64,000 nt of DNA from Ornithodoros turicata. Lineage: Eukaryota > Arthropoda > Arachnida > Ixodida > Argasidae. Both the position numbers and the translations under genes were made by a program. Under the pieces are notes generated by a model. It saw only the letters and a program-made list of their open reading frames with translations. It was not told the DNA's origin and did no database searches. The stretch spans positions 65,866,879 to 65,930,878 of the forward strand of contig NC_088201.1 of assembly GCF_037126465.1 (NCBI RefSeq). The letters are read 5' to 3'. Positions within the stretch are counted from its first letter, which is position 1, and the number at the start of each line of letters is the position of its first letter. Shown here piece after piece: positions 4,143 to 62,125 of the stretch.

Positions 4143-4563
4143 CAATGTTCACAAGGTGCTACATTTTTTTTTTTTTTTGTCTGTGTGAAACAACACTTCC
4201 CGACAGCCCCCCACAAGCAGGCGATATAGAGTAGTAGCCAAACTATAAATGGCAGATGACATGAAAGACAAATTAGTCGCATAGGGCCAAATGGTAATGT
4301 CATATCTTGCTTATCCGGAGCTCAGATATCCGGAAAACTCGTTACCGGACTCCATTACCGGAAACGAACTTGGTAGCAAGTTCGTTCCCGGTAATGTAGT
4401 CCGGATAACGAGTTTTGACCCTATTCATTGGCTCATTTGGCCCTCTGCGATTAATTTGTCTTTAATTTGCTACTACGCTATATCACCTGCTTGTGGGGGG
4501 CTGTCGGGAAGTGTTGTTTCACACAGACAAAAAAGAAAAAAAATTGTAGCGCCTTGTGAACAT
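4143..4563. repeat. Long hairpin (foldback) repeat
   Basis: atgttcacaaggtgctac at 4,143 mirrors gtagcgccttgtgaacat at 4,546. The arms contain the mirrored cttcccgacagcc and acctgcttgtgggg blocks. The centre acttggtagcaagt lies inside a second, tighter inverted repeat (4,340-4,410). The left arm is longer by a poly-T run. Confidence 0.65.
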
Positions 4564-5600: not shown

Positions 5601-5878
5601 AAATGCAACGAACATCTCGTGACCACCCTTTGTCCCGCTCGCTCGGAACGGCCACAGGCTTCCTAGACGACTATCACAGGCACAGGATGCGGCATGAGAT
5701 GCAACATACTATGGATGATATGTACACTGAGCGACGCCGTGAGCAAAGCCAGGCACAGCTTTTGGCACGACCCGCCGGGTCCCGCGTTTCTGTTCCCTCT
5801 GACCTTGGACAAGAGGAGCCGTGTGGAAGGTTTTATAAACCGAATCCTGTGTTGTCACACGAAATCATGTTGCTTCAG
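5601..5878 (+). CDS. Exon 1 (coding from 5,603)
   Basis: It begins after cccatgcccaccag with aaATG and ends ...CTTCAG|gtacga. It encodes 92 residues starting MQRTSRDHP, with an Arg/Met/His-rich helix (HRHRMRHEMQHTMDDMY) and a stretch ending LSHEIMLLQ. The reading frame is open back to 5,552, so a longer or upstream 5' exon cannot be excluded. Confidence 0.68.
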
Positions 5879-17800: not shown

Positions 17801-20446
17801 TCCCGTTTTCAGCAAATCTAGGGCGAGAACGTTGTCATTCGGGATGATGGTTGGCGAGGAGCGTGCTATGTGGTGAAGTTCATTTATAAGTGTAGAAGGA
17901 GCGTAGCTGCTTAACACGCATCTGCTTGTCAGTTATCCTCTGTCGCAATGTAGCCATTTCTGCTTCAGGTTCTCAGAATAATGTCGTTGTCGGAAGTCCC
18001 ACGATGGCGAACCTTGTTGTCGGTTTACGACCATGTTGGAGCACAGCTGGTGCAGTGCGCGTTGTTGCTTTCAGAGTACACCTACACTCTTAAAAATGAA
18101 CTTCATAGCATAGCACGCTCCTAGCCAATCATGATCTCGAATGATATCGTTATCTGCCCTGATTCGTTGAAAACGGGAGGCGTACGCCTTTTTGTGACTT
18201 ATGCTGTTCATAATTGTCACAAAAAACGTGTCCTTCACGTTTCTCTTTCGCTGACCTTGATCGGCCGAGAGAGAAGGAACCGAAACATCTTCACCTCCTT
18301 CCCGATACTTCAAACTGGCGCTAACCTCACTGCGATTTTCTGAAGTAGTCTATTGACAGTTCTCTCGTCCTGTGTGCAGACTTTTAAATAAGGAACAATA
18401 AGGAACTCGTGAGGACTCTCTTTCCTCTATCTTTCGCGACTTGCAGCAGCATCTGCACCGTGTGCCTGTGCCGCGGTCCGCCTCACAATGTCACCACTCG
18501 GCCTCTTTTGCAGTAACATGGACATAACAGCAGCCTCCCGAGCAGCAGCTGCGGAGGACATCGCTGTGGGAAACTTGCATGCAATGGCCACTGAAAGGGC
18601 TGACGCGCCCGGTCCCATTTTAATGATGTTGCCTCCCATATCGGAGGCACGAGGAACGCCTTTGTGCCGACCTCCTGACAGCAGAAACGCTGCAATCGCC
18701 GCCAGCCGAGACAGCATGGGTGAGTTTTCCCTATTCGTTAGGCAAGTGCAGTGACGCAAAGCGGTCTACAGAAGCATACTGTAAGTGATGCGTAGAAGGT
18801 AATGACGCTGTAGTGCGTTCATCAGTGCAACCTAACTGAAATCTAAAATTAATCTTGCGGGCAGAGTGGGCCAAGAAATGGGGAATTAGCTTGGCAGGGT
18901 GCACAATCGGTGCTTATCGGTTGCATGGAAGTTATAGCGGCAGGGACCAGGTAAATCAGGTGCGACTCGCGAGCCCAGCCACAGGATGCCCGCAGGCACC
19001 GCTACAGTCTTGCAGGGAACTTTCGGGAAACGGTCGGTCGATCGGTGCGTGGTCGAGCGTCAAGGAACCGATCGGATACAACCGTTACGATGCATGTGGC
19101 GCAATCTCTCGTCAAGGATAGAAGAAAAAATTTTCTGCGGCACCGTAAGGATTCTTTCAGAGAAAAATAAGAAACGTATTCCCGTATGTGTGTTCGACCG
19201 ATAGGACGAAGTACAATTTACCAAAAACGTTTCACCATGCAGTATCCTCACATGAAATAGCGAATGACATTCAAAATGTCGGCAGAGATCTTTCGGATAT
19301 TTTCTACGGCGTGTTTCTGGCCTCTAGTCCGAATGACGAAGAACCAGACATGTTTATACACCCGGAAGTTTATACCGTTTCCGGAAAACTCTGTGCTCAC
19401 GTCCTCTCCTGCAACGTTATATCTATGACCTCAACCAGAGTCGTCGCAACCTCAACCTTCAGAAGGTCTTTATTGTATACATAGATGGGCGTACAAGAAA
19501 TCTGTGTGCAAGTAAAATAAATAGTTTACATGTTCTGCATCGTCCTAGCATTCTGTAAGCTCCTACACGCGTAATTGAATTAACAACAGAGAAATGGACC
19601 TCGGAAGACCGACAGTGAGGCGTAAATACTGACAGAAGACTTGTAGAGAAAAAGTGACTCAAAACAAAGCTCGAGATACAGTAGCAGAATTTATGTTGCA
19701 GTTTCATGCGGTGTTCCGTCTTGTCTCTTGTCTGAAGGAAAAAAACAAAACAAAAATACGCCCGCCTTTTATGAAACTGCCACAGAAATGCTAAAGCCGA
19801 ATAATTGCTGTCAGTTGGGATATGATACAGATAACGATCAATTTGCGTTCTCCTACGCTGGTGGTGCTCAGCACTGTTGCTGTAGCAATCCAAAGCATAT
19901 CAATAAATCAATCTTCGATCTTCAATTATGATTGAAACCAATGGCCATTGAACATGCGCGTGCCGCCACAGGTTGCCTGACAGGTTGACGCATTATACGC
20001 TAGCTGACGCTACCCGCATGTCCAATGGCCATTGAAATGTATAGCATTGGTCAAGCCACATTGCTTTTTTGCCCTAATTTCCGACACCTTGAGTTTCGAT
20101 CATCATTGACTTCTGCCCGTGTGACTGGGGTATTATCGTGGGGAGGAGATACGCGCAGGTATCGCTTAGCACACAGTGACCTGAGTGCTCAGAGTTTGCA
20201 ATGAACTACGATTTCCTAGTTTGCAGAGGAGTGGTAAGCATCTACTGTTTATTTTCTCATTTTCTCATCTTGACAGGCAAGCGTAGTAAGACATCTATCT
20301 CGAGTCTGACCGCACCGCTGTTGCCCTCCGCCGCCCGGCGCAGCGGCTTGAGAATGTCGGAGCGCACCTGCATAATCATGAATTTGATCCTCGTGAGCGC
20401 CCTCGTAGGCACTGTGGGTGCATTCATCATCCGCCACTACTACTAA
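5603..20446 (+). CDS. Seven-exon gene: Q-rich protein with C-terminal membrane anchor
   Basis: Coding exons 5,603-5,878, 6,638-7,036, 10,457-10,588, 14,405-14,770, 16,687-16,802, 18,514-18,719 and 20,277-20,446 sum to 1,665 nt, or 555 codons including the TAA stop. Every intron begins GT and ends AG. Phases are 0,0,0,0 then 2 and 1, and each join keeps the frame. The protein opens with a charged helix-like region, then a glutamine-rich coiled-coil-like segment (exon 2). Low-complexity P/S/T-rich exons follow. It ends in about 20 hydrophobic residues after basic residues (LILVSALVGTVGAFII, then RHYY), which is a tail-anchor topology. No signal peptide is seen. I do not recognise the family and infer no function beyond anchoring in a membrane facing the cytosol. 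An AGTAAA hexamer at 20,535 is a possible polyadenylation signal. The start ATG could be preceded by an unseen exon. Confidence 0.72.
6545..6572. repeat. (TA)n microsatellite in intron 1
   Basis: A run of ta dinucleotides interrupted by a single g. The rest of intron 1 (5,879-6,637) shows nothing else recognisable. Confidence 0.8.
6638..7036 (+). CDS. Exon 2, glutamine-rich
   Basis: The acceptor is ctcttaccaacaaacag|GAG and the donor AATCAG|gttagt. It encodes 133 codons in phase 0. The centre is Q-rich with M/R/E spacing (QQLMQQQQEMQKQRMRLQQ), compatible with a coiled coil or polyQ-type helix. A basic stretch follows (QRKRIHRRRDRQNFK). The long leucine-rich ORF on the opposite strand is only its shadow. 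Confidence 0.8.
7379..7615. mobile_element. CACTCT-family foldback MITE, copy 1 (intron 2)
   Basis: The ends cactgttaaaacagaactt and aagttctgttttaacagtg are inverted. The arms contain the family signatures cttcaccacatagcacg, ctagccaaccatc and caacaaatc. The core pairs ggcgcctatctggga with tcccagataggcgcc. It is the whole element, about 237 bp, without a gene. Confidence 0.8.
8316..9180. mobile_element. Near-perfect palindromic MITE, CAGGGTGTC ends
   Basis: tacagggtgtc at 8,316 and gacaccctgta ending at 9,180 are the ends, flanked by TA. The arms mirror along almost their whole length: ttcttcggtacagattttt against aaaaatctgtaccgaagaa, gaacatctgttcctttcg against cgaaaggaacagatgttc. The loop is near 8,700-8,800. 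Non-autonomous, Tc1/mariner-type target site inferred from TA. Confidence 0.75.
9330..9465. mobile_element. Degenerate CACTCT-family MITE fragment
   Basis: The pair gggcgtacgtccttttgtgtca / tgacacaaaaaggtgtacgccc, followed by gggataaccctatcattcg and aatggttggc, matches the core and right arm of the MITE copies near 18,180 and 20,850. Both termini are lost. Confidence 0.4.
10457..10588 (+). CDS. Exon 3
   Basis: The acceptor is cttttgcccggttag|ATG and the donor CACTTGAAG|gtgagc. It has 44 codons, phase 0, beginning MQAGQERQ and ending DGHHLK. Proline, tyrosine and glutamine are common, suggesting a disordered segment. Confidence 0.75.
10589..12259. other. Intron 3, first part; no feature recognised
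   Basis: Several overlapping ORFs on both strands (largest 11,789-12,181, + strand, 130 codons) have no recognisable homology and no splice context in phase with the gene. Treated as intronic repeat-derived DNA. Confidence 0.35.
12260..13640 (+). pseudogene. Degenerate mariner transposase (copy 1)
   Basis: Fragments in three frames align in order with mariner transposase. The N-terminal helix-turn-helix region (MKFLFREKKCPRETYEYM, DACPSYPTVK) lies at 12,298-12,530. KLSTKWVLPKCLNAEEKKRR is at about 12,810-12,865. The first catalytic Asp context (TADETYG) is near 12,970, followed by NSMEWRDSGSPRP. LLQDDAQTHKA is near 13,330, and IEHSLYSPYLVPSDN near 13,400-13,440. In the normal YSPDLAPSD motif the first D has become Y while the catalytic D of PSD remains. 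Frameshifts, stops, an insertion near 13,145-13,210 and a MITE at 12,532-12,768 break the gene. It lies in intron 3 of the host gene. It belongs to a different mariner lineage from the copies at 31.5 and 61.3 kb. Confidence 0.78.
12532..12768. mobile_element. CACTCT-family foldback MITE, copy 2, inside mariner
   Basis: ta-cactcttaaaagtgaacttc at the left and gaagttcatttcttagagtg-ta at the right give a TA target duplication. The insertion splits the degenerate mariner transposase. The core pairs ggaggcgtagcc with the reverse of ggctccgcctcccg. 237 bp, no gene. Confidence 0.85.
13641..14404. other. Intron 3, last part; nothing recognised
   Basis: A short (atcc)n-like run at about 13,748-13,768. 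The ORF at 13,821-14,213 is unsupported. Confidence 0.35.
14405..14770 (+). CDS. Exon 4
   Basis: The acceptor is tatttccatgacag|GTC and the donor TTCACAAAG|gtatga. It has 122 codons, phase 0 at both ends, rich in P, E, S and T (for example NRAPPPSPDAAQHVAMMYQ), which is typical of a disordered linker. No domain is recognised. Confidence 0.75.
14771..15629. other. Intron 4, first part; nothing recognised
   Basis: Only short ORFs and no repeat match to other parts of the window that I could see. Confidence 0.35.
15636..15942 (+). mobile_element. Ruka-like tRNA-derived SINE
   Basis: The tRNA-like head has box A (tggccgagtgggc, 15,645) and box B (ggttcgaatcc, 15,713), followed by a tRNA-unrelated body and an A-rich tail ending at 15,942. 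Direct repeats ttatga at 15,630-15,635 and 15,943-15,948 are the target duplication. The head looks like a Leu/Ser-type tRNA. The whole resembles the Ruka family described from ixodid ticks. It lies in intron 4 of the host gene, sense orientation. A second partial copy is at 20,940-21,087. Confidence 0.82.
15949..16686. other. Intron 4, last part; nothing recognised
   Basis: An ORF of 119 codons (16,094-16,453) has no homology or splice context that I recognise. Confidence 0.3.
16687..16802 (+). CDS. Exon 5
   Basis: The acceptor is cctcttgactttacag|GCA and the donor ACAAGAGG|gtgagt. It is 116 nt, leaving two bases of a split codon. It encodes a Ser/Thr-rich acidic stretch (ENEESGSRTSSTGSTQSTR). 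Confidence 0.75.
17109..17241 (-). mobile_element. LTR of a Gypsy-type retrotransposon
   Basis: Read on the minus strand it starts TGTTATGTTGTGATG and ends CAACACAACA. Inside are a TATAAAAG box and an AATAAAG polyadenylation signal. It is directly preceded by a polypurine tract (AAGGGAAGGAGAA), so this is the 3' LTR. About 133 bp, which is short. It lies in intron 5, antisense to the host gene. No second LTR is visible. Confidence 0.65.
17242..17640 (-). pseudogene. 3' end of Gypsy-type pol region, broken
   Basis: Minus-strand sequence upstream of the LTR reads like the tail of a Ty3/Gypsy polyprotein with stops, for example a phrase of the R-PQRYG type near 17,405, followed by non-coding sequence and the polypurine tract. 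The rest of the retrotransposon is absent; a MITE abuts at 17,659. Recognition rests on the position before the LTR and weak motif memory. Confidence 0.45.
17659..17892. mobile_element. CACTCT-family foldback MITE, copy 3 (intron 5)
   Basis: Ends ta-cactctaagaaatgaac and gttcatttataagtg-ta. Arms carry cttcaccacatag, agccaaccatcatcccg and the mirror cgggatgatggttggc. The flanks tcttc/gaag extend the palindrome slightly. No gene. Confidence 0.85.
18085..18234. mobile_element. CACTCT-family MITE, copy 4, right arm lost
   Basis: The left arm is intact (cactcttaaaaatgaacttc ... ttcgttgaaaacgggagg), then the core ttttgtgacttatgctgttc and tcacaaaaaacg, and the match stops. The core word atgctgttcataattgtcac is shared with the copy at 20,766 and marks a subfamily. 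Confidence 0.7.
18514..18719 (+). CDS. Exon 6
   Basis: The acceptor is gcctcttttgcag|TAAC and the donor GACAGCATGG|gtgagt. The first base completes the codon split by the previous intron. 206 nt, alanine-rich (AASRAAAAEDIAVG). An ATG 26 nt upstream in the same frame is not needed. Confidence 0.72.
18720..20276. other. Intron 6; no certain feature
   Basis: An open frame at 19,188-19,484 (+) reads protein-like but has no identified homolog. A short inverted repeat (caatggccattgaacatgcg / cgcatgtccaatggccattg) lies at 19,939-20,036. Confidence 0.35.
20277..20446 (+). CDS. Exon 7 with tail anchor and stop
   Basis: The acceptor is tctcatcttgacag|GCAAGC, joined in phase to the single base left by exon 6. 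It encodes a Ser/Arg-rich run, then MSERTC, about 20 hydrophobic residues and RHYY-stop. Basic residues before and a short polar tail after the segment fit a C-terminally anchored membrane protein. Confidence 0.78.
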
Positions 20447-20765: not shown

Positions 20766-20916
20766 CACTCTTAAACACTGACACTTATGCTGTTCATAAT
20801 TGTCACAGAAAAGGCGTCCGCCTCCGGTTTTCAACAAATGAGGGCAGATAACGATATCATTCGCGATGATGGTTGGCTAGGAGCGTGCTATGCGGTGAAG
20901 TTCATTTTTAAGAGTG
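20766..20916. mobile_element. CACTCT-family MITE, copy 5, left arm deleted
   Basis: ta-cactcttaaa starts and ttaagagtg-ta ends, but most of the left arm is missing. The core atgctgttcataattgtcac is followed by an intact right arm (gcgatgatggttggctagg). An internal-deletion derivative. Confidence 0.8.
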
Positions 20917-20939
20917 TAGCTGTGAGCGGGTTACAGGCG

Positions 20940-23214: not shown

Positions 23215-23843
23215 ACCTGATCGGAAATATGGGTATAGAGGTATGGGTTTGAGAACCGTTACCGGCACTTTGCCGACTCTTTGCTAATTGCCTTACTTTC
23301 TATCTTGACCTGCTTATGTGTTGACGAGGCCTGTGTTTGTGTAGTCTTAATTCTTCTCTAGCCTCATCCATCTGCGTTACTATCGTGTAATTTGTGGTTC
23401 GCGCCTATTTTGATGAAAACATTTCGGAGTTCGGATTCATTTTCTTCATTCGCAGGCGGGACTTCTCTTGGCCTCAATGTAATACCTTCATCTTCGTCGC
23501 GCTGTTGGCGGACACTTTTATCTTCTTTTGTATTGTGCGGTGACTGCAATTCTTATTGCGGTGCATGCAGTCTATTATAGGTCATCCAAATAAATAATGT
23601 GCCTGTTATTTTGCCTGTTGTGTTGCTGTTTAGCTCGGCATAACACCCTTATTGAAGGGTGTTGTCTTGTCTGGGGGCGTAGACATACACCAAAAAGGGA
23701 GTCAGGGTACCGCTGGATTACACCTAAAGAGATGAGAGAACTGATGTTCTGAGGCTGGAACAACATAGAAGGAACAAATACATACAAAGCCTCAAATTGC
23801 CTAAGAAATTAACGATGAAAGATAAAAGTCACTGAAAAGGTTA

Positions 23844-23914
23844 GCCAGCTGTAGGACTCGAACCCACATCTTCCGGATTACCGGTCCAGGGCTCTACCAA
23901 TTGAGCTAAGTTAA
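23844..23914 (-). tRNA. tRNA-like unit, likely pseudo (anticodon GGT)
   Basis: On the minus strand the D arm (tagctcaattggtagagc), anticodon arm (ctgga ccggtaa tccgg) and T arm (gtggg ttcgagt cctac) can be drawn. The loop has C instead of T at position 33. The same unit with other anticodon letters recurs at 27,893 and 28,213. It is therefore best read as the promoter head of a repeat rather than a functional tRNA gene. Confidence 0.4.
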
Positions 23915-24247
23915 CACACCTTCTCAGCCACTTTCAGGGTGCGTCATCTGAAGGGACAAAGCAGTCACTCTCTCTCACTCATCCTCCTTTCACTCTTACA
24001 TTTTTGCTCACTCATACACACGTTCATACGACAGGGATCATTTACAATTTCATACGACAGGGATCTCATTTTCAGCATTTGCCGCTTGCGTCGATCCCTG
24101 TCGTATGAATGTGTGTATGAGTGAGCAAATAGCGAGCGAGTCCTACAGCTGGCTAACCTTTTCAGTGACTTTCATCTTTCACCTAAAGAGATGTTCAGAT
24201 TACACCCTTTCTGAGGGGTGTAGTTTTGCCAGAGGATGTATACATAT

Positions 24248-27892: not shown

Positions 27893-28317
27893 AATTGGTA
27901 GAGCCCTGGACGGGCAATCCAGAAGATGTGGGTTCGAGCCCTACAGCTGGCTGACCTTTTCAGTGACTTTCATCTTTCATCGTTAATTTCTTAGGCAAAT
28001 TGAGGCTTTGTATGTATTTGTCCCTTCTATGTTGTTCCAGCCTCAGAACATCAGTTCTTTCATGTTCATCAGTGCCGCCTGCGTTGATCCCGTCGTATGA
28101 ATGTGTGTGTGAGTGAGCAAAAATGTAAGAGCGAAAGGAGGATGAGTGAGAGAGAGTAGCTAGTTTGTCCCTTCAGATGGGGGGACGCACCCTGGAAGTC
28201 GCTGAGAAGGCGTGTTAGCTTAGCTCAATTGGTAGAGCCCTGGACCTGCAATCCAGAAGATGTGGGTTCGAGTCCTACAGCTGGCTGACCTTCAGTGACT
28301 TTCATCTTTCATCGTTT
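27893..28317 (+). mobile_element. Insertion with two tRNA-like heads in tandem
   Basis: It opens inside a tRNA-like head (tcaattggtagagccctgga), continues through ggcaaattgaggctttgtat and the gtgtgtgtgagtgagcaaaa block, and then has a complete second head at 28,213. It splits repeat R1 exactly where copy b reads gggagtaccaagatg. A SINE-like dimer, 5'-truncated. Confidence 0.6.
28213..28286 (+). tRNA. Complete tRNA-like cloverleaf, likely pseudo (anticodon TGC)
   Basis: The acceptor stem gttagct/agctggc pairs with two G-T pairs. D arm gctc..gagc, anticodon arm ctgga cctgcaa tccag and T arm gtggg ttcgagt cctac all form. The anticodon would read Ala codons, but loop position 33 is C. It is part of a repeat, so function as a tRNA is doubtful. 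It could still act as a pol III promoter. Confidence 0.45.
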
Positions 28318-31492: not shown

Positions 31493-32401
31493 CGAGGGGT
31501 GTTCAAGTCAAACCGGGACATTCTGTCTCCTGAGTGTACAAATGGCTCGCGCTACTTCTCACACGGGCAGGCCTCGGCGTTCACCACGTGGTGGTCCAAA
31601 GTTTGTGCAAAACAGAAGACACGTGCTGGACAAGATGGCCGACAACGAGGTGAGCACGCACATCGAACAGCGAATTGTCATGAAGTCTCTCGGGAATGAA
31701 GGCGTAAAGTCATCTGAAATTCACAGAAGACTTCAGGCTCAGTATGGCAACGGTACACTTTGCCGCAGCAAAGCGTTTGAGTGGTGCAAACGGTTCCGAG
31801 ACGGCCGTACATCAGTGCAGGACGATCCCGGCCGGGGCGGCTCAGAGCCCAGTGTCAGAGTTCCTGAGAACATCCAACTTGTGGAGAGGCCTGATCCTCA
31901 AGGACCGACGGATAACATGTCTCGAACTGGCTCGAAAGACGGACCTTTCTGTGGGAACGTTGAACACTATTATTCATGAACACCTCCAGTTTCGGAAAGC
32001 CGGGCCTCATCACCAAAGGAGTCCTCCTCCTACAGGACAATACACGCCCGCATATCGCACATCTCACGACACGCACCTTACAGGAACTTGGCTGGGAGTT
32101 GCTGCCACATCCCCGTTACAGTCCAGACCTCGCCCCCAGACATTTCCATCTCTTCGGTCCACTGAAGGCGTTCCTTGGGGGCCGCCACTTCAGCTGCGAC
32201 GACGAGGTCAAGAATGCGGTCCAATCATGACTGCTACGCGCCGGTAAGGATTTCTACGCTGCTAGCATCCAAGCCCTCGTGAAACGCTGGGACAAGTGCA
32301 TTAGTGCAGCTGGAGATTACGTTGAAACTAATTTCTCGCCTCAAAGTTCATTTTACTTTTGCGAAAAATGAAAAGTCCCGGTTTGACTTGAACGCCCCTC
32401 G
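31493..32401 (+). mobile_element. Mariner element, copy 2, internally deleted
   Basis: Terminal inverted repeats cgaggggtgttcaagtcaaa (31,493) and its mirror ending cgcccctcg (32,401), each flanked by TA. About 909 bp, so shorter than a full mariner of about 1.3 kb. A paralogous repeat at 32,561 shows the empty site (tctacc-ta-gaaac), which fixes the ends. The transposase inside is broken. Confidence 0.88.
31542..32330 (+). pseudogene. Mariner transposase pseudogene (copy 2)
   Basis: MARATSHTGRPRR... opens the N-terminal part; the mariner DNA-binding region follows (HIEQRIVMKSL, SKAFEWCKRFRDGRTS). A frameshift leads to LARKTDLSVGTLNTIIHEHL. An internal deletion then joins to GLITKGVLLLQDNTRPHIA and YSPDLAPRHFHLFGPLKAF. 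The first catalytic Asp block is deleted, and the third catalytic Asp (normally APSD) is His. The tail ends AAGDYVE-like near 32,322. It cannot be active. Confidence 0.85.
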
Positions 32402-37116: not shown

Positions 37117-38021
37117 GGGTGTTTCACGAAATTCCTGGACTGAATAATTCGGAAACAGTTGACATTGTCGGGATATTTTCTTTTCGGGTAGCAACCATGA
37201 GGCGCCAGCCACAAACTGACCGCTCAGTTGTTCATTTGCATACGCTTATCAATCGAGATCCGAACTTTTAAATTTTACTTACGCCCTCTGAAATTTATTT
37301 GACCGATCGGGGCGTTCATCGGAACATATTCCAGGAGGAAAAAAAAAAGAAAAACCGTCGACACTTCGTGATGGTTTTGGTTTACATATTTCTTGCGCGG
37401 AGCAGTGCAGTAATGCACTCTAGCGCTCAATTTTGTGGTCATCCGCCTGGATTGGAGGCGGGGGTACCGCAAGATTAGGAAGAGCAACGAGCACATATTG
37501 CCTCTTGTTCTCTATCTGATTAGCATCCAGGATGGATGTGGTGACATTTGGTGTGCCAGACGGTGCTGTTTTATCGAGAAAATGACAAGCCCTTATAGAC
37601 CAATCGCGATAATAGAGCACTGTCTGACCCACCCACTGTCCCGATCGCAATCATCATTGCATGTCGACTAGAGAACGAGATGCAATATCGCACTCTCGCT
37701 CGGCAGCTGTTCCTTATCTTGCGGCACCCCCGCCACCAACCCAGGCAGATAAATACAGATACACACGAAATTGAGGAACGAATAATGGTGGCGAAACAGC
37801 GCATTGGAGAACTGCTCCGCGCAAGATATATGTAAACAGAAACCAACTAATAACTATAAAATATCACTAAGTGTCGATGCATTTTCTTTTTTAATATGTT
37901 TCGCTGAAGATCCCGATCGGTGAAACAAAGCTTCGGAAGGCATCCTATGTAAAAGGAGGAGAATGTTGCGAACCGACATGAGTTTCCCGATAAAGTAAGC
38001 AGTTTCTGAATTTTTCAGCCG
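37117..38021. repeat. Foldback repeat, arms 37,370-37,530 / 37,670-37,848
   Basis: tttacatatttcttgcgcggagcag mirrors ctgctccgcgcaagatatatgtaaa. ggcgggggtaccgcaagat mirrors atcttgcggcacccccgcc. The word gagggtgtttcacg near 37,117 suggests a relative of the palindromic MITE at 945-1,692. Confidence 0.55.
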
Positions 38022-38259
38022 CACTCTTAAAAATGAGCTTCCCCACATAGCACGATCCTAGCCAACCATCATCCCGAATGACAACGTTCTCGCCCCTCAT
38101 TTGTTGAAAACAGGAGGTGGAGCCTATTTTGTGCCCATTATGCCCGGCACAGAATAGGCTCCGCCCCCTGTTTTCAACAAATCGGGGGCGAGAACGTTGA
38201 CATTCGGGATGATGGTTGGCTAGGATCGTGCTATGTGGGGAAGCTCATTTTTAAGAGTG
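38022..38259. mobile_element. CACTCT-family foldback MITE, copy 6
   Basis: cactcttaaaaatgagcttc and gaagctcatttttaagagtg are perfect inverted ends. The arms are nearly identical mirrors, with centre gcccattatgcccggcac. The flanks are cg/cg rather than TA, so the target site is altered. The closest to a perfect hairpin of all copies. Confidence 0.87.
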
Positions 38260-44458: not shown

Positions 44459-44514
44459 CGTACAAGTAGTACTATTAGGTGTCGTATTGTCGTGGATGAG
44501 AATGCTAGGCGCGT

Positions 44515-44700
44515 TTATTGACTCCTGGGCCGACTTCACTCGCGAATTTTTTCCCGTGCGCCTACCGGCGGGCGGACGTCTGCGCGTGCGCTTATCGTCG
44601 CGCATTGTTCAGCCTGGGCCGACTTCTTTTTCTCCGATTTTTTTTCTCCTGGGTCGATTTCACTCGCAATTTTTTTTTCCGTTACAAGAGGTGTGCGGTG
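44515..44700. repeat. Subterminal cctgggccgacttc repeats, left end
   Basis: Three copies: cctgggccgacttcactcgc (44,525), cctgggccgacttctttttc (44,616) and cctgggtcgatttcactcgc (44,649). The right end has four in mirror orientation (53,610-53,845). Confidence 0.8.
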
Positions 44701-44839
44701 GGCTGTTTACATGCAAGTATAGACATGCAAAGGGTAGCCATACACAAAAGTACAAGGGAAAATATATTTATTAAAGTCAGTAGTGCTGGGAATTATGTTG
44801 TGACTCTGTGTGGAGGGGAAAAACCCAGCCAAAAAACCT

Positions 44840-46620
44840 GAAGCAGAAGAAACACAACACGATACACGTAACAAAGATTATACTTACTGTATGATGCAAT
44901 AGCATTGAAGAGCACAGAAAGAATCAAACACAATATTTTTTATTAATGGTAATCATACACACAAGTTTTCAATGAAGTAAAATGGAGTAGCACATTTAAC
45001 CAAAAAAGATATTTTAATCAATACGACTACAATCAAAATTACAAGTTTTATTATAAAAAGTCTAACATTCCTGTACGTGAGCACCATCACTGCAACAATG
45101 GAGTTTTAATTTCAATTAATTGTAATTTCAGTTACAAGTTCTGGCAGATATAAGTAATTTCAAGCACAATAGGGAAGCTAAGTTTATTATGTCTTATTCC
45201 AACACGACACAAATATAATTCTTATTCAGTTTCTTATGAAGTGAATAGCGCAGACATAAGGAAATAATTCGCATCAGCACAACACAATCAATAGCTAGCA
45301 CTAAGAGAGAACCAAACCGACGTACCCTCCAACATGTATGAAAAATAATAGCGAAACATTGCTCTATCAAAACGAGAAACGGACGTGACTTTTAATCAAA
45401 AAGACATTCTTAATCAATATGATAACAATCAAAATTTCAAGTTTAATTATAAAAGTCTGAGACGTGACCACCATCATTGCAATAGCATGATTTTAATTTT
45501 AGTTAGAAGTGCCGATAGATGTATGTAATTAATTGTGAACATCAGAGACCCTGGAAGACCACTGGACACGAACGACACGACAACAACGACACGAACACAA
45601 GAGGAAATAACAAACAAATAACAAAGGAAACTGCATTTAATCAAAGAAGATATTCTTAATCAATATGATTACAATAAAAATTATAACAATTTTACAATTC
45701 TTACAATTTTTATTATAAAAAGTCTGAGTCGCAATCACTATTATTGCAACACTAAGAATTTCCTCATTACCATGTTTCTTTTTAAGTGTTTTAAGTAATT
45801 TCAAGCACAATAGGGAATCATAAGTTGCATATGTTTTGTTCCAACATGGTATAGCTTTTCAATTTTTCAATTTCTTATTAAGTGAATAGCATAGCCGTAA
45901 GGAAATAATGAGAAACAACATGATCAACAGCTAGCATTATTAGAGAGCCAAACCTGCGCATCATCCAACACATAAACAACAGGTACAGGCAGGAAAATAA
46001 TAGCGAAACAATCTATGAAAACGAGAAACATTACAAATTTAATACTGTGACTACCACAGGCTTAGCACTGAAGAACAGAGGAACACTCCAACGCGTAAAC
46101 AGAGGATAATAATCTATCATTTTAACTATCATAAAATCATCCTCGTGACTTAAATCTAATCAACAACAACACTATACAATTTTCATTCCAACAGACACTA
46201 CAAACCTTACTTTGTTTTATAAATCCCACACGGTAAATAGGTATGTTAAAAATGAACATCACCACATAGCACGCTCCTAGCCAACAACCATCTCGAATCA
46301 TATCGTTATCTGCCCTGATTTGTCTAAGACGGGACGCGTACCCCTGTTTCGTGACAGTTATGAACATTTCGAGCGCAATAGGGAATCTAAGTTTCTTATG
46401 TTTTGTTCCATCATTACACAACTTTTAATTAATCAATTTTTATTAAGTGAATAGCATAAACGTAAAGAAATAAGGAGAAACAACACGATCAACAGGTAGC
46501 ATTAATGGAGATCCAAACCTGCACATCATCCAACACGTAAACAACAGATACCTGCAGGAATATAATGACGAAACAATCTATCAAAACGAGAAACATTACA
46601 AATTTAATACTGTGACTAGC
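44840..46620. repeat. Higher-order repeats of about 0.6 kb inside the left inner arm
   Basis: The phrase aagtgaatagc..taa..gaaataa recurs at 45,238, 45,880 and 46,445, each followed by tagca..a..gagaaccaaac-like and aacgagaaac words. The phrase aatcaatatgat..aacaat/aat..aaaagtctga recurs at 45,010, 45,410 and 45,655. The mirror set is in 51,600-53,300. Confidence 0.65.
46245..46365 (-). mobile_element. Half of a CACTCT-family MITE, left inner arm
   Basis: gttaaaaatgaacatcacca..agcacgctcctagcc continuing to gtgacagttatgaaca. One arm of the MITE only, without its CACTCT tip. Its mirror is at 51,910-52,032. Confidence 0.75.
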
Positions 46621-46774
46621 ACAAACTTAACGCTGAAGAACAGAGGGACACTCTAAGCGGCGCATTCTCCAACACGTAAACAACAGAGGAAAATAATCTA
46701 TCATTGAACCATCATAATATCATCTTCGTGACTTAATCTAATCGAACACTATACAATTTTCATTCTAACAAACG

Positions 46775-47026
46775 CTACAAACTTACATTGATGGAGGCAT
46801 CCAACACACAGAAGATAGGCATGTACAATGAGAGAGGATCTCGGTTTTCACTCTTTTCCTCACAACCGGGAGACTTTAACTCTCTGTCTATACGACCAAA
46901 GCGAACCAACTGCGCATGCTTTATCACACCAAAGGCTGTGGGGTAAATCACTATTCCTTCTTTCAGCAAACGGGAGGCTCTCAAGGTCAGGTAAGAGGTA
47001 CAAAGGCGATATATTTTATTGTACAA
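46775..47026 (-). CDS. Small conserved ORF, left inner arm (hypothetical)
   Basis: 83 codons on the minus strand. The inner part (YLTLRASRLLKEGIVIYP, IKHAQLVRFGRIDRELK, EEKSENRDPL) is shared with the mirror ORF at 51,232-51,510, with several conservative changes and no stops in either. No domain recognised. It could be a real small exon or chance preservation within a palindrome. Confidence 0.35.
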   Translation of the reverse strand: MYNKIYRLCTSYLTLRASRLLKEGIVIYPTAFGVIKHAQLVRFGRIDRELKSPGCEEKSENRDPLSLYMPIFCVLDASINVSL

Positions 47027-47590
47027 TTATCGCAAATAGATGTTGGTATTATTCGCCGGGATCACTATCTTTTCACATTCTTTCATTGAAAGCGAAGTCT
47101 TTCTTCAAAGTGGATGACAAGTCGGCTAAGTTTGTACAGAGGCGTTATTTTTATTGGACATGTAGAGAAAGTTCAAATTATTCAATGATAGATCAAAAAC
47201 GAGAAACAAATTTAATTACATCAATTTTTTTGTAATAACTTGCAACTGAAAGTTCTAGAGGAACCACACAGGAACATCATATGTGAAACACAATTATGAG
47301 ACATTCCCAAGTCAGATTATTTTTCTAATGTCAATCGAGTGAACATTTGAAACAAATACAAGACAATAATTATTTCAGGCAGTAACTTTCTAAGCGAGCG
47401 AGAAATATTTAAAAGTTTCCTACAAAGGAAATCAACAGACGCAACTAATACATCATGCATACATAATTCCCAACTCATAGAATGTCAATCGAGTGAATAC
47501 CTGAAGCAAAGCCAAAACAATAATTAATTCAGACAAATCATTTCTAAGTAAGCAGCGTGAATACACCACAGAAGCTCTACAAAACATGAA

Positions 47591-47720
47591 TGAATAAACA
47601 GGATCAACATGGTGGATTCAAGCGATAAAGTGAGTGATGAAACAAAAATGATGAAACAAAAATGAACAATGAATAAACAGGATCAACATGGTGGATTCAA
47701 GCGATAAAGTGAGTGATGAA
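47591..47720. repeat. Tandem duplication in left inner arm only
   Basis: gaataaacaggatcaacatg..gtgagtgatgaaa occurs at 47,591 and 47,669. The right arm has a single version near 50,630-50,685. Confidence 0.8.
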
Positions 47721-48069
47721 AGCCCACGACCCCAACACTAGCATCAAATTAGGGAAGGGAGGTTTTTAGCGCGGTCTTGTACATACGTTTTTTCTTACAC
47801 ATCACATCTTTTTGTAAATCAATTTCCATAATTATCACGCCAACACGAGCGGGATATTAATAACATTTAAACCAGATAGCATAATAAATTTTTAAACAAT
47901 AAAATGAGCATAGATACGCTTTTATTTAAATGTAGAGGCACACTTGATAACAGAACAGACAATTTCTCTACATTGAAGCGATGGACAGATTTTGTACTCG
48001 GTACCATAAATCATAGGAAGATGTGATAAAAACTGATTCGAAAAAGAAGAACCGCGAAACGATTCTATT

Positions 48070-48798
48070 ATCACTGCATTTCAATACGTCCTAGACATGG
48101 TCGTATTCGGAGATATGATACAAACTACAGAATTGAAGTTGCAAGAATTTGTATGCAGAATCTACAATAACTATAAAATGATTTGCACGTCAACACGGAA
48201 GGGCCACTGGGATTGATGGTGGAGTTTTTGAGGTTTGCTAACAAAGAATTGAAGTACACTAGACCAGATGTAATTGTAATCATTGCAATGGGCATTCCAT
48301 TCATCAAGAAAGCAGTGAGATGAAATTATCATATACAAGCGGTCTATATCGAACGATTCATTACGGATTTGTTGAAATTACACCTAACTATTGACATGGA
48401 AAGTACATAAAAAATCTTATCACGTGATATGTTCCACTACCACGGCTACGCAATTATTTTCTTCTAGCAGTTCTTGCAACGATATCGAATGAGCAGCACT
48501 TCAATATTGTTGTACAAGGTCTGATGTATCATCACTTATTGGAGCTCAATGACTACAACAACGGCGGTGGACCACTGGACGATTTTCACCTAATACTCTC
48601 CTGTACGCCATTCAAGAATCTTCATACAAAAAAAAAGAAAACATCAATAAGAGATTGCGCAAGTTTGTGGCAACTAAGTGCAAGTTACTGAAGCGATACA
48701 AATACGGCGACAACGTATCGATTGCATTAATCAACGCTGGACCTAAGCGACCCATAATTACTTTATTATATGATGCATTCTCAATTCATGAATCATGA
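48070..48798 (+). pseudogene. Unknown ORF of inner element, left copy, broken
   Basis: Reads VEFLRFANKELKYTRPDVIV, IERFITDLLKLHLTI, then FNIVVQGLMYHHLLELNDYN and YKYGDNVSIALINAG, with at least three stops or frameshifts. It ends in a TGA near 48,798, facing the loop. The mirror copy at 49,588-50,312 is less damaged. Function unknown; the sequence looks helical and cytosolic, with no membrane span. Confidence 0.5.
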
Positions 48799-48955
48799 CA
48801 AGAAACCAAAACTTCAAGTTTGGAATAGAACAATTGCACTTTATTGAAATAAACAAGTGTATAACTGAAATAATAAATGTAATTTCTTTGTCATCTCCAT
48901 AATGAATTCTATGCATCGCAACGAAAATAGATTGATTGCGATTGTATTTAGTATG

Positions 48956-49427
48956 TTCAGATTGACAACAATGTTTGCTAAGGAAACGAATATTCCACAC
49001 TATGTGCTGAATCAGAGCTGACCACCAAATAGGTTTTACCCGACTACAATCTGTACAATTACAATCTGTACATTCTTAGGATAGACTTGCGGAGAAGAAT
49101 CGGTCATTGAAATTTAGAGGCATGATACAACAATCTTTGTTTACAAAAGAGGATCACTAATCTTTTGCGAAGACTTATCATATTTCGTGAATTAAATTGT
49201 ACAGCGTGTGTATATTTCTCAAACAGTTGGACTAGCTCTCTTATTCATGAGCAGACGACAAATCTATAATTGAAAGCATGTCTATAACATCTTTTGACAT
49301 AATACGTTGAAAGGAGTCTATTATCAAATGCCGCGATGCAAGTGGAGTATTTTACAAACGTGACTTGCAGGCGGAGTCTACATTTCTAATCACGTAATCC
49401 GGCACGGCACACAAACGCATATGAGAT
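48956..49427. other. Loop of the inner palindrome
   Basis: The only unpaired part of the inner element. It contains the short direct repeat acaatctgtac (twice near 49,049-49,070) and no ORF of note. Confidence 0.55.
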
Positions 49428-49587
49428 AAACGCAATCAATCTATTTTCGTTGCGATGCATAGAATTCATTATAGAGATGACAAAGAAATTACATTTAATA
49501 TTTCAGTTTGTTTATTACACTTGTTTATTACGATAAAGTGCAATTGTTCCATTCCATTATTCCAAACTCTGAAGTTTTCGTTTGTTG

Positions 49588-50312
49588 TCATGATTGATTA
49601 ATTGAGAATGCATCATATAATAAAGTTATTATGGGTCGCTTGAGCCCAGCGTTGATTAATGCAATCGATAGGTTGTCGCCGTATTTGTATCGCTTCAGTA
49701 ACTTGGACTTAGTTGCCACAAACTTGCGCAATCTCTTGAATGGCGTACAAGAGAGTATTAGTAGAAAATCGTCCAATGGTCCACCGCAGTTGTTGTAGTC
49801 ATTGAGCTTCAATAAGTGATGATACATCAGACCTTGTACAACTATATTGAATTTCTGCTCATTCGACATCGTTGCAAGAACTGGTAGAAGAAAATAATTG
49901 CGTAGCCGTGGTAATGGAACATATCATGTGATAAGATTTTTTATGGTGGTGGTGTTTATAGTCAGGTGTAATTTCAACAAATCCGTAATGAATCGTTCGA
50001 TATAGACCACTTGTATATGATAATTTGATCTCACTGCTTTCTTGATGAATGCAATGCCCATTGCAATGATTACAATTACATCTGGTCTAGTGTACTTCAA
50101 TTCTTCCTTAGCAAACCTCAAAAACTCAGTAGCCCTTCTGATGTTGACATGCAAATATTTTTTATAGTTTTTGTAGATTCTGCATACAAATTCTTGCACC
50201 TTCAATAGTATAGTTTGTATCATATCTCCGAATACGACAATGTCTAGGACGTATTGAAAGGCAGTGATAATGGAATCGTTTGGCGGCTCTTCTTCTTCGA
50301 AGCAGTTTTTTA
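49588..50312 (-). pseudogene. Unknown ORF of inner element, right copy
   Basis: Two minus-strand frames in series. 50,312-49,924 carries DSIITAFQYVLDIVVFGD, RFAKEELKYTRPDVIVIIAM and ERFITDLLKLHLTI. After one stop and a short gap, 49,869-49,588 carries FNIVVQGLMYHHLL, PLDDFLLILSCTPF and KLLKRYKYGDN, ending SINQS-stop. Together they make about 240 codons. The left arm keeps a short Lys-rich stretch that this copy lacks. Conserved hydrophobic/charged spacing suggests a folded helical protein once under selection. I do not recognise the family. It points toward the loop end of the arm. Confidence 0.5.
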
Positions 50313-51231
50313 TCGCATCTTTCTATGACTTATGGTAACGAGTACAAAATATGTCCATCTCTTCAATGTGGAGCAATTGTCTGTTCTGTTATCAAGTGTG
50401 CCTCGACACTTAATTAAAAGCGTATCTATGCTCACTTAAAAAAAATTATTAAGCTATCTGGTTTAGAATGTTATTAATATCCCGCTCGTGTTGGCGTGAG
50501 AATTATGGAAATTGATTTACAAAAAGATATGATGTGTAAGAAAAAACGTGTGCTCTCAATGATTCTATGTACAAGACCGCGCTAGAAACCTCCCTTCCCT
50601 AATTTGATGCTGGTGTGGGGTCGTCGGCTTTCATCACTCACTTTATCGCTTGAATTCACTAGTTTCCAGGATCAAGTTTCTGTGCAGATTCTGTGGTGTA
50701 TTCACGCTGCTTGCTTACAAATAATTTGTCTGAATTAATTATTGTTTTGACTTGTATTCACTCGATTGATATTCTATGAGTTGGAAATTCTGTATGCATG
50801 TATACATTAGTTGTGTCTGTTGATTTCCTTTGTAGGAAACTTTTAAATATTTTTCGCTTGCTTAGAAAGTTACTGCCTGAAATAATTATTGTCTTGTATT
50901 TGTTTCAAATGTTCAATCGATTGACATTAGCAAAAATAAGCTCTGAGTTGGGAATGCTTCATATTTCTGAGTTATGTTTCACATGTGATGTTTCTGTGTG
51001 GTTGATCTATATAGAACTTTATGTTGCATGATATTACAAAAAACTGATGTAGTTAAATTTGTTTCTCGTTTTTGATTGAGCATTGTTTCTATCATTGAAT
51101 AATTTGGACTTTCTCTACATGTTCAATAAAAAATATCACCTCTGTACAAACTTAGCCGACTTGTCATCCACTTTTAAGAAAGACTTCCGTTCGAATGAAA
51201 TAATGTGAAAAGATAGTGATCCCCGCGAATA

Positions 51232-51510
51232 ATGCCAACATCTACTGGCGATAATTGTACAATAAAATATATCGCTTTTGTACTATCTTATCTTACCTTG
51301 AGAGCGTCCTGTTTGCTGAAAGAAGGAATAGTGCTTTACCCCACAACCTTTGGAGTGATAAAGCATGCGCAGTTGGTTCGCTTTGGTCGTATAGATAGAG
51401 AGATAAAGTGTCCCGACTTTAAGGAAAAGAGTGAAAACCGAGATCCTCTCCCATTGTACATGCTTATTTTACTGTGTGTTGAATGCCTCCATCAATGTAA
51501 GGTTTGTTAG
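51232..51510 (+). CDS. Small conserved ORF, right inner arm (hypothetical)
   Basis: 92 codons on the plus strand. Mirror of 46,775-47,026, with matching LTLRASCLLKEGIVLYP and KHAQLVRFGRIDREIK. The opposite strand of the same DNA contains stops in this arm, so this strand is the better candidate. Confidence 0.35.
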   Translation: MPTSTGDNCTIKYIAFVLSYLTLRASCLLKEGIVLYPTTFGVIKHAQLVRFGRIDREIKCPDFKEKSENRDPLPLYMLILLCVECLHQCKVC

Positions 51511-51909
51511 AATGAAAATTGTATAGTGTTCGATTAAATTAAGTCACGAAGATGATTTTATGATGGTTCAATGATAGATTATTTTCCTATTTTGTTTAAG
51601 CTTTGGAGAATGTGCCGCTTAGAGTGTTCCTCTGTTGTTCAGCGTTAACTCTGTGCCAGTCACAGTATTAAATTTGTAATGTTTCTCGTTTTGATAGATT
51701 GTTTCGCTATTATATTCCTGCAAGTATCTGTTGTTTACATGTTGGATGATGTGCAGGTTTGGCTTTCTATTAATGCTAGCTGTTGATAATGTTGTTTCTG
51801 ATTATTCCCTTACGTCTATACTATTCACTTAATAAGAAATTGATTAATTAAAAGTTGTGTAATGTTGGAACAAAACATATGAAACTTAGATTCCCTATTG
51901 CGCTCGAAA

Positions 51910-52032
51910 TGTTCATAACTGTCACAAAACAAGCGTACACCTCCCGTCTTCAACAAATCAGGGCAGGTAACAATATCATTCGAGATGGTTGTTGGCTAGG
52001 AGCGTGCTATGCGGTGAAGTTCATTTTTAACA
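51910..52032 (+). mobile_element. Half of a CACTCT-family MITE, right inner arm
   Basis: tgttcataactgtcac..ggttgttggctaggagcgtg..aagttcatttttaa. Only the right half of the MITE. Its presence in both arms dates it before the inner palindrome formed. Confidence 0.75.
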
Positions 52033-53579
52033 CATCTATTTTCTGTGTGGGATTCATAAAACAAAGTCATGTTTGTAGTGTCTGTTAGAATGAAAATTGG
52101 ATAGTGTTCGATTAGATTAAGTCACGAGGATGATTTCATGATAGTTAAAATGGTAGATTATTCTCCTTTGTTGTCTACGTGTTGGAGAGCGTGCCGCTTA
52201 GTGTTCCTCTGTTCTTTAGCGCTAAGCCTGTGCTCGTCACAGTATTAAATTTTTATTGTTTCTCGTTTTGATTGATTGTTTCGCTATTATTTTCCTGCCT
52301 GTATCTGTTGTTTACATGTTGATGATGCGCAGGTTTGGCTTTCTGTTAATGCTAGCTGTTGATCCTGTTGTTTCTCATTATTTCCTTACATCTATGCTAT
52401 TCACTTCGCAAGAAATTGAATAATTAAAAGCTGTGCCATGTTGGAACAAAACATATGCAACTTATGATTCCCTATTGTGCTTGAAATTGCTTAAAACACT
52501 TAATAAGAAACATGATAATGAGAAAATTATTAGTGCTGCAATAATAGTGATCGCGACTCAGACTTGTTATAATAAAACTTTATTGAAAATATATTTATTA
52601 AATACATTTTTATTGTAATCGTATTGATTAAGAATGTCGTCTTTGATTAAATGTTGTGTCCTTTGTTATAGATTTTATTTCCTCTTGTGTTCGTGTCGTT
52701 CTTGTCGTCGTGTCGTTCGTGTCTCATGGTCTTTCAGGGTCTCTGTTGTTCACAATTAATTACATACATCTATCGGCACTTGTAACTGAAATTAAAATCA
52801 CGCTATTGCAATGACGGTGGTCACGTCTCAGACTTTTATAATAAAAGTTGAAATTTTGATTGTTATCATATTGATTAAGAATGTCTTTTTGATTAAAAGT
52901 CACGTCCGCTTCTCGTTTTGAAAGAGCAATGTTTCGCTATTATTTTCCCTACATGTTGGAGGGTACGTCGGTTTGGTTCTCTATTAGTGCTAGCCATTGA
53001 TTGTGTTGTGTTGAGTCGAATTATTTCCTTATGTCTGTGCTATTCACTTTATAAGAAACTGATTAATTAAATTTGTGTCATGTTGGACACAATAAACTTA
53101 GCTTCCCTATTGTGCTCGAAATTACTTCAATCTGTCAGAGCTTGTAATTGAAATTAAAACTCCATTGTTGCAATGATGGTGCTCACGTATAGGAATGTTA
53201 GACTTTTTATAATAAAACTTGTAATTTTGATTGTAGTCGTATTGATTAATATCATCTTTGATTAAATGTGCTACTCCATTTTAATTCTGATTCATTGAAA
53301 ACTTGTGTGTATGATTACCATTAATGAAAACTATTGTTTGATTCTTTCTGTGTGACACCTCTTCAATGCTGTTGCATCATACCTGTAATAAGTAAGTATA
53401 ATCTTTCTTACATGTATCGTGTTGTCTCTTCTGCTTCAGGTTCGTTGGCTGGGTTGTTCTCCACACAGAGTCACAACATAATTCCCGGCACTATTGACTT
53501 TAATAAATATATTTTCCCTTGTACTTTTGTGTATGGCTACCCTTTGCATGTCTATACTTGCATGTAAACCGCACACCGC

Positions 53580-53850
53580 ACACCTCTCGTAACGGAAAAA
53601 CATTTGAGTGAAGTCGACCCAGGAGAAAAAATGACGAAAGAAGTCGGCCCAGGCTGAGCTTTGTGCGACGATAAGCGCACGTGCAGCCCTCCGCCCGCCA
53701 GTAAGCGCACTGGCACACACCCTCCGCACACGCGCCACCACCCGCGAAGTCGGCCCAGGGGTGTTTTGTAGATGAAGATTCAGAACATATGTTTTGTTCT
53801 TATTAGGTCGGCCCGCGCGAAGTCGGCCCAGGGGTCAATACACTCGCCTA
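53580..53850. repeat. Subterminal gaagtcggcccagg repeats, right end
   Basis: gaagtcgacccagga (53,612), gaagtcggcccaggc (53,639), gaagtcggcccaggg (53,747) and gaagtcggcccaggg (53,820). An extra stretch of about 110 bp here is absent at the left end. Confidence 0.8.
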
Positions 53851-53897
53851 GCATTCTCATCCCCGACAATACGACACATAATAGTACTACTCGTGCA

Positions 53898-57069: not shown

Positions 57070-57925
57070 AAGCTTTTGATTCAGTGAATGGCAGTACTCA
57101 GCGGACCTCTTTCACTTTGAGAGCCGTACCGCTGAGCCCGTGGTGGAATTTGAAGTTGGTCTTCTCGTTGGTGACATACAACCCGCAGATATGGATGTCA
57201 CTCCGCTCAGGACAATGTACACGAGTTGATGCTGCTGAGACTTGTAGTATTCAAACACGACCTCGGCGAAAGTGCCACCCTGCAGCTCATGGCATCGTCA
57301 TGGCACAAGTGGGTACCAGGGGAAACTGCATCTGTCTGCACTTGACATTACCGCATAGTGGTGTTGACAAGTTAGTCTGACTATGGGAGTCGAAGTTGGA
57401 TCCAACCCACCAGCAGTGAAGAGCACGAGCTGCCGAGCCTTCACTTTGCCGTTCGCATACATAGTGGCATCTGCGAAGGCGAGCTACACATGTACGAAGC
57501 CATTATTTTCGTCTGTATCTTCGCCTAATGGGGCCGTTTTGATGTGCTTGAGAGTGCCGATAACTCTATCGACCACTCCATGCTCGACATCTATGTTGAC
57601 AGTGATCATGTATGGAAATCCGGTGGCTAGCTTCACAAGTTAAGGCAGCACGCCGCTCTTTAGCACATTCATCCTGTGTAGTTTACGCCACACGTAGCCG
57701 ACTGAGCATCGCGCCTTTAGCCGGTGACCAGATCCACAGTCACACTTTCCCGCAGTTTGCTGATAGCCTGCAAGTTGTAGTTGTCTACGCTGTGGTTTGT
57801 GTGTACGAGACGCAGGGACATTGGGTACGTTCTCCTGGCACCACTGGTAGCGGATGCGTGACATGATCGCGTTCGTCTATTCCTGACGCAAGCGGTGCCC
57901 GTTGCCTATCTTGTCATCATCTGTG
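57070..57925 (-). pseudogene. Helitron helicase C-terminus, right arm (uninterrupted)
   Basis: Minus strand: VRLVHTNHSVDNYNLQAIS, VTVDLVTG, PYMITVNIDVEHGVVDRVIG, KVKARQLVLFTAGG, VFEYYKSQQHQLVYIVLSGV, LYVTNEKTNFKFHHGLSG. It shows what the left helicase looked like before the 9.4-kb insertion (insertion point in the PYMITVN-encoding stretch). Confidence 0.75.
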
Positions 57926-61225: not shown

Positions 61226-62125
61226 TCCAAACATACAACGGATGTTCAAGTCAAAGCGGCACTCAAAATGAACTTACAGGCGAGAAATTAGTTTTATTTT
61301 TCAACGTTATCTCCAGCTGCACTAATCCCCTTGTCCCAGCGTTTCACGAGGGCTTGTATGCCAGCAGCGTAGAAATCCTTACCGGCGCGTATAGCACCCA
61401 TGATCGGACCGCATTCTTGACTTCGTCGTCGCAGCTGCAGTGGCGGCCTCCAAAGAACGCCTTCAGTGGCCCGAACAGATGGAAATCGCTGGGGGCGAGG
61501 TCTGGACTGTAAGGGGGATGTGACAGCAACTCCCAGCCAAGTTCCTGTAAGGTGCGTGTCGTGAGATGCGCGGTATGCGGGCGTGCATTGTCCTGTAGGA
61601 GGAGCACTCCTTTGGTGATGAGGCCCGGGCGCTTTTGCTTCAGCGCCTTATGCACATCCCCGAGAACCTGGCAGTAATATGCACTATTGATCGCACTATA
61701 TGCCCTATTGATATCGAGACATGTTATCCGTCGGTCGTGGATGTTCTTAGGAACTCTGACACTGGGCTCTGAGCCTGGCCGGCCGGGATTGTCCTGCACT
61801 GATGTACGGCCGTCTCGGAACCGTTTGCACCACTGAAACGCTTTGCTGCGGCTAAGTGTGTCGTGGCCATACTTAGCATGAAGTCTTCTGTGAATTTCAG
61901 ATGTCTTTACGCCTTCATTCACGAGAAACTTCATGACAATTCGCTGTTCAATGTGCGCGTTCACCTCGTTGTCGGCCATCTTGTCCAGCCGGTGCCTTCT
62001 GTTTTGCACAAACTTTGGACCACCACGTGGTGAACGCGGAGGCCTATCGCGTGTGAAAATGATGAAAAAGAAGTAGCGCGAGCCATTTGTACACTCAGGA
62101 TACAGAAAGTCCCGGTTTTTTGTCA
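61226..62125 (-). mobile_element. Mariner element, copy 3, internally deleted
   Basis: The plus-strand left end caacggatgttcaagtcaaa is a degenerate version of the terminus seen at 31,493. The other terminus is cut short after the reverse of aaaccgggact near 62,120. Present only in the right outer arm, between the mirrored segments. Confidence 0.75.
61344..62090 (-). pseudogene. Mariner transposase pseudogene (copy 3)
   Basis: A single open frame (up to 260 codons, reaching 62,126) contains HIEQRIVMKFLVNEGVKT, SKAFQWCKRFRDGRTSVQ, NIHDRRITCLD, then a deletion join to SAINSAYYCQVLGDV, LLLQDNARPHTAHLTTRT and YSPDLAPSDFHLFGPLKAFF. The second and third catalytic Asp (QDN, PSD, 34 residues apart) are kept. 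The TGDET block with the first Asp is deleted. The frame is open but cannot catalyse. The C-terminal GDYVE tail is frameshifted. Confidence 0.85.

Follow-up and report, generated by a model that had tools for sequence, protein, structure and literature searches.

In foldback elements such as FB and Galileo, a small loop lies between long inverted arms that contain tandem repeats. Adenoviruses give rise to symmetric inverted-duplication defective genomes, which are palindromes of one end of a linear, protein-primed genome and are replicated in trans. For vertebrate Mavericks, one survey gives 5'-(AGT)2//(ACT)2-3' as the commonest end motif, target-site duplications of 6 bp and, in intact elements, terminal inverted repeats (TIRs) of 46–1,447 bp (PMC8097293), and ixodid tick genomes have been reported to hold 453 integrations with homology to Adintoviridae (PMC10675110). 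Here we describe a 9,427-bp palindromic element at positions 44465–53891 of a 64,000-nucleotide stretch of the genome of the argasid tick Ornithodoros turicata (hereafter the window; NC_088201.1, 65,866,879–65,930,878 of the forward strand, or C1:65866879-65930878 in the labels used here). This element is probably one worn copy from a large family of Mavericks (Polintons) that is palindromic, non-autonomous and satellite-like.

The element starts with AGTAGTACTATT and finishes with AATAGTACTACT, and is built of two inverted arms around a loop:

44459–44464, no strand: left target-site duplication, CGTACA (from the sequence and its alignment with an unoccupied site)
44465–44470, plus strand: terminal (AGT)2 (read from the sequence; the motif is also in PMC8097293)
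44465–48940, plus strand: left arm (arm alignment)
48941–49430, no strand: loop, 490 bp
49431–53891, minus strand: right arm, inverted relative to the left, 91.9% identity (arm alignment)
53886–53891, plus strand: terminal (ACT)2 (read from the sequence)
53892–53897, no strand: right target-site duplication, CGTGCA, a single mismatch from the left (5/6; same basis as the left)

The arms agree at 3,917 of 4,264 ungapped positions (Jukes–Cantor distance 0.086); they are separated by 51 gap events, and their mismatches are spread uniformly (chi2 22.3, 16 degrees of freedom, P 0.13). Because they carry independent insertions and deletions and 8% divergence, the palindrome is unlikely to be an assembly artefact. 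A 75-bp run identical between the arms was rejected as a signal, being equalled by chance in 437 of 1,000 shuffles. GC content is 35.9% in the element, against 47.2% in the remaining window, and 51.7% in its two outer 300-bp ends combined. An initial annotation, made from the sequence alone, had described agtagt..actact ends, a cgtaca/cgtgca flanking duplication, 4.5-kb inverted arms and an AT-rich content distinct from the flanks, all of which were borne out; the loop it placed at 470 bp is present but measures 490 bp by arm alignment.

The flanks of the element recur in inverted orientation within the window (43761–44455 matches 58315–57614, and 53896–55203 matches 57610–56244; 73–75% identity). 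When joined with one 6-mer, they align across a second site:

57581–57645, minus strand: unoccupied paralogous insertion site (alignment of the joined flanks)

The paralog reads CATACA at the 6-mer, with one 4-bp gap immediately to its left. It follows from this alignment that the element most likely entered as a single unit, duplicating 6 bp.

To look for other copies we searched the 1.07-Gb assembly. The left 201 bp produced at least 52 matches (40 of 1,056 candidates scored). The terminal 28-mer, at up to three mismatches, produced 12 genome matches versus 0 for a reversed control, and these include four end pairs:

Window element: 9,427 bp
C38:970468-1036611: 66,144 bp
C64:1174540-1249927: 75,388 bp
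C1:131308091-131323189: 15,099 bp

Across the six copies that could be read at both ends, AGTAGT opens 11 of 12 ends (the exception is the right end of C38, AGTACT), so the element and its relatives have the Maverick end form, AG..CT with short tandem repeats. The flanking 6-mers agree at five or more positions in five of these six copies, a level that two random 6-mers reach with a chance of 0.005. Besides the window copy, these are:

C38: TCCGGA/TCCGGA, 6/6
C64: AACGTG/AACGTC, 5/6
C4:64803384-64810877: GCTAAC/GCTAAC, 6/6
C1:131308091-131323189: CTGCTT/CTGCTT, 6/6

The earlier suspicion of Polinton-like ends with 6-bp duplications thus extends from the window copy to four of five further copies, and the condition that the initial annotation had named as counting against it, a lack of further copies with such duplications, did not hold. 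We also considered whether the 66- and 75-kb intervals with element-type ends might be giant viruses and rejected this, as the sampled pieces of C38 contain BEL/Pao and Gypsy-type genes; part of the C38 interval length probably reflects nested insertions.

We then compared all 85 open stretches of at least 45 amino acids (aa) in the window copy with Pfam. Among them there was no protein-primed DNA polymerase B (PolB), no retrovirus-like integrase, no packaging ATPase, protease or capsid gene and no transposase domain; nine families reached E ≤ 0.1 (best 0.022), none of them a Maverick core family. Each arm does hold a copy of one gene:

48011–48796, plus strand: arm gene, left-arm copy, with several lesions, convergent toward the right-arm copy
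49588–50322, minus strand: arm gene, right-arm copy, 132-aa and 111-aa open stretches in one frame with one intervening stop

The right-arm frame (50322–49588) exceeds every one-stop frame in 2,000 resampled sequences. Its 111-aa piece is homologous to a 142-aa gene at two other loci, L063 and L064 (45% over 100 aa; E 2.6e-26 for the right arm and 2.3e-19 for the left); no tested frame matches the remaining window better than E 0.006. In both L063 and L064 the 142-aa gene adjoins an open frame leading into PolB. Through this protein the element has sequence in common with autonomous copies, as a non-autonomous derivative should, L063 and L064 being recognised as such by PolB alone. The initial statement that the element has no Polinton genes therefore held for PolB, integrase, ATPase and capsid in the window copy, but not for the arm gene, which is homologous to a gene beside PolB.

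The association of the 142-aa gene with PolB recurs across the genome, where DNA_pol_B_2 has at least 91 matches, many of them within frames longer than 1,100 aa. Counting only these 91 scored of 1,253 PolB candidates, a scored PolB lies no farther than 5 kb from 26 of the best 79 of 150 listed 142-aa gene matches, in every case in divergent orientation; from the PolB side, 27 of the 91 have the 142-aa gene within 5 kb, 26 divergently and one not. At another locus, L065, an integrase and an A32-like ATPase lie upstream of the PolB frame, all within 8 kb, and the 132-aa piece of the arm gene weakly matches the end of a 223-aa open frame adjoining this integrase (22% over 113 aa, E 2e-4, in a five-sequence comparison).

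A protein search of the genome with the 111-aa piece returned at least 150 matches of 3,691 candidates, most of which are 133-aa frames without a stop. Across 16 open frames, taken from 14 of the 19 palindrome-family loci scanned, the three codon positions show differences of 0.086/0.079/0.150 and the ratio of nonsynonymous to synonymous change (dN/dS) is ~0.38, the pairs not being independent. By this measure the arm gene is under purifying selection, and because it is, it probably serves the satellite or its helper somehow. A dN/dS estimate based on just the window copy's own pair of arms (0.5 at best, from 13 windows) was too weak and was dropped. Searches of the arm pieces against Pfam, PHROGs and PDB gave nothing convincing, and protein searches against 5.8 billion sequences gave 9, 1 and 0 candidates, none with E ≤ 1. 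Viral contigs and prokaryote genomes yielded no match. The likeness of the 132-aa piece to CBP80, a nuclear cap-binding protein (E ~0.9 over 32 residues), was put down to chance, and AlphaFold models of the two pieces, modelled separately, were all helical with mean predicted local distance difference test scores (pLDDT) of 52 and 48 and were not used.

A gene that is open in most copies listed and under purifying selection would also be expected of an autonomous palindromic element, one that replicates or integrates by means of its 133-aa gene and has that gene in common with Mavericks through exchange; that the gene has no recognised domain leaves room for such an activity. The related 142-aa gene, however, is found repeatedly beside PolB, and the 85 open stretches of the window copy showed neither a polymerase nor an integrase. 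We consider autonomy unlikely.

Palindromic structure extends to other copies. Inner-gene DNA has at least 43 genome matches (40 of 2,504 candidates scored), and we fetched five copies as 10-kb stretches, three picked with ends or pairs known (C4, C2, C1:67) and two without (C6, C1:131). Inverted arms were present in all five:

L058: inverted arms, 90–94% in longer blocks, 73–79% near the ends
L059 (the C2 copy): inverted arms of 3.35 kb, 96.8%
L060: inverted arms, up to 95.8%
L061: inverted arms of 0.8 kb, 91%
L062: inverted arms of 0.9 kb, 82%

Because parts of the window loop occur within both arms of L058, L060, L061 and L062, the turn-around points vary between copies. The 150 listed matches to the arm gene include 22 pairs of neighbours no more than 15 kb apart; every one of the 22 is convergent, like the window copy, and none is in any other order. 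A one-off defective genome was rejected given the many copies, the inverted arms in 5/5 and the convergent pairs in 22/22. A tree of 23 arm segments joins the arms of the same copy as sisters in three of four copies (supports 0.96–0.98), where C4:21983734/21992453, segments 8.7 kb apart, are counted as one copy by assumption.

These data bear on the idea that an ordinary Maverick inserted here and only then became palindromic, as its ends underwent conversion or inverted duplication and its middle was lost. C38 shares the ends of the element, its inverted repeat is short (90 bp), and the four pieces sampled contain the inner arm block once, so non-palindromic relatives with such ends may exist. 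Convergent order and inverted arms are nevertheless a trait of the family, the nearest relative of the window left arm is at another locus, and palindromic copies at other loci with duplications of their own have largely been found already; we give this origin little credence. Least likely is a foldback element or another kind of cut-and-paste transposon (FB/Galileo, MULE, hAT, Dada) served by a transposase family of its own, for although the long inverted arms and internal tandem repeats flanking a small loop recall foldback elements, the (AGT)2//(ACT)2 ends, duplications of 6 bp and no other length, a gene in common with PolB-bearing elements and 85 open stretches of the window copy devoid of a transposase domain are Maverick-type or speak against it.

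Several observations weigh against a palindromic Maverick family. On the Maverick side, L063 and L064, which give the strong gene match, owe their label to PolB and its context, and integrase and ATPase were seen only in L065, where the gene match is the weak one (E 2e-4). The PolB-bearing elements are known from internal sequence, and a terminus in common with a helper is putative. With 91 of 1,253 PolB candidates scored, 53 of the 79 best 142-aa matches have no scored PolB within 5 kb, and a scored PolB lies within 15 kb of just 1 of 150 palindrome-type genes. On the palindrome side, three of the five fetched copies (C4, C2, C1:67) were preselected by known ends or pairs, and the two chosen without them, L061 and L062, have inverted arms over 0.8–0.9 kb only. 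No termini were found for the C2 copy (L059), 106 of the 150 arm-gene matches listed are without a listed neighbour within 15 kb, and 5 of 19 loci scanned yielded no open frame of the arm gene. The sixth copy read at both ends, C1:67276599-67286081, has AGTAGT at either end with flanks that agree at only 3/6 positions. Finally, the window left arm groups with a locus ~205 kb away (0.90), the right arm coming next. Because of this grouping the window palindrome is probably older than its insertion, and dating the insertion from arm divergence was rejected.

With these points counted, a palindromic Maverick derivative is still the reading we favor. The element shares with adintovirus-like Mavericks its ends, its 6-bp duplications and a homolog of the gene that is divergent from PolB in this genome. 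It differs in being a near-complete palindrome, with 4.5-kb arms compared with the 46–1,447-bp TIRs given for intact vertebrate Mavericks (PMC8097293), and in that PolB, integrase, ATPase and capsid genes were not detected in the window copy. The initial annotation had offered two readings, a foldback derivative mobilised by a Polinton integrase or an undescribed class. The second was too strong, as the element is a variant inside the Maverick sphere; the first was the better half as to Maverick origin, and mobilisation in trans would fit it.

From the anatomy, duplications, copy structure, gene homology and selection observed directly, we infer a helper, a mode of replication and copying between arms. 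A Maverick's protein-primed PolB would start on the repeated AGT ends of the palindrome, and a Maverick integrase would insert it in trans with a 6-bp staggered cut. Arm-to-arm copying, by snap-back or conversion in the replicating molecule, could have made the arms alike in three of the four copies tested. A Maverick end segment, already holding a 570-bp tandem repeat and half of a miniature inverted-repeat transposable element (MITE), probably gave rise to the founder when it underwent inverted duplication. The adenovirus defective genomes are similar in being one-end palindromes and, if this is right, in replicating in trans; the tick element differs in belonging to a family that resides in chromosomes, has retained a conserved gene and integrates with duplications.

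More tentatively, and as a possibility that falls short of probable, the family may be a palindromic Maverick satellite: symmetric, hairpin-prone, with a convergent pair of one Maverick-type gene, hijacking the polymerase and integrase of its helper, present in hundreds or thousands of copies, and with arms re-made alike in most moves by inter-arm copying. No palindromic Maverick satellite is evident among the titles and abstract openings that searches of the open literature listed. If true, Mavericks possess satellites of their own that retain one gene. Arm pairs could then be compared copy by copy, like pairs of long terminal repeats, as a test of how these elements replicate, and the conserved 133/142-aa gene would stand out as a specific candidate for acting in Maverick replication or satellite–helper interaction.

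The arms also contain repeats and short motifs:

44526–44661 (44526, 44615, 44650), plus strand: three subterminal TGGGCCGACTTC-type sites, up to two mismatches (motif scan)
45772–46790, plus strand: two copies of a ~570-bp tandem repeat, left arm (arm alignment)
46244–46366, plus strand: half of a dispersed palindromic MITE-like repeat, left arm (window self-comparison)
51491–52515, minus strand: right-arm counterpart of the ~570-bp tandem repeat (arm alignment)
51910–52032, minus strand: half of the MITE-like repeat, right arm (window self-comparison)
53610–53830 (53610, 53640, 53746, 53819), minus strand: four subterminal TGGGCCGACTTC-type sites, up to two mismatches (motif scan)

At up to one mismatch, the outer 300-bp ends together contain CTGGGCCGACTTC six times, the rest of the element 0 times and the remaining window once; sequences resampled from the element ends average 0.0005 occurrences. 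The motif region is not exclusive to these ends, because at two mismatches the subterminal 12-mer turns up six more times elsewhere in the window, and many of the genome matches obtained with the left 201 bp span solely its inner, motif-bearing part. The 570-bp tandem repeat is older than the palindrome (informative sites 31 versus 2 and 1). In the window self-comparison the MITE-like repeat was the element's sole match outside itself; whole copies of ~240 bp lie at 7378–7615, 12528–12772, 17655–17896 and 38016–38259, and half copies at 18078–18219 and 20779–20923. The left arm also has a 79-bp tandem duplication with an identical 54-bp core (47589–47721), which is probably younger than the arm divergence.

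Many scored PolB matches lie in frames of 1,161–1,281 aa with equal scores, which suggests recent Maverick amplification in this genome. In L065, the open frame leading into PolB (4531–6099) has an Endonuclease_7-like domain (Pfam E 2.3e-7).

The element sits in the left arm of a larger, older palindrome (~40251–63583, centre near 55632), the arms of which are 63–75% alike where aligned. Termini of this palindrome were looked for and none was found, and its 57 open stretches of at least 75 aa gave just a mariner transposase and one weak match to a domain of unknown function. Mariner (Mos1-like) transposon copies lie at 31510–32354 and 61265–62118 in inverted relative orientation and are 82.5% alike. 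Two tRNA matches, at 23843–23915 and 28214–28286, fall within repeated stretches ~90% alike and are possibly tRNA-derived short interspersed nuclear elements.

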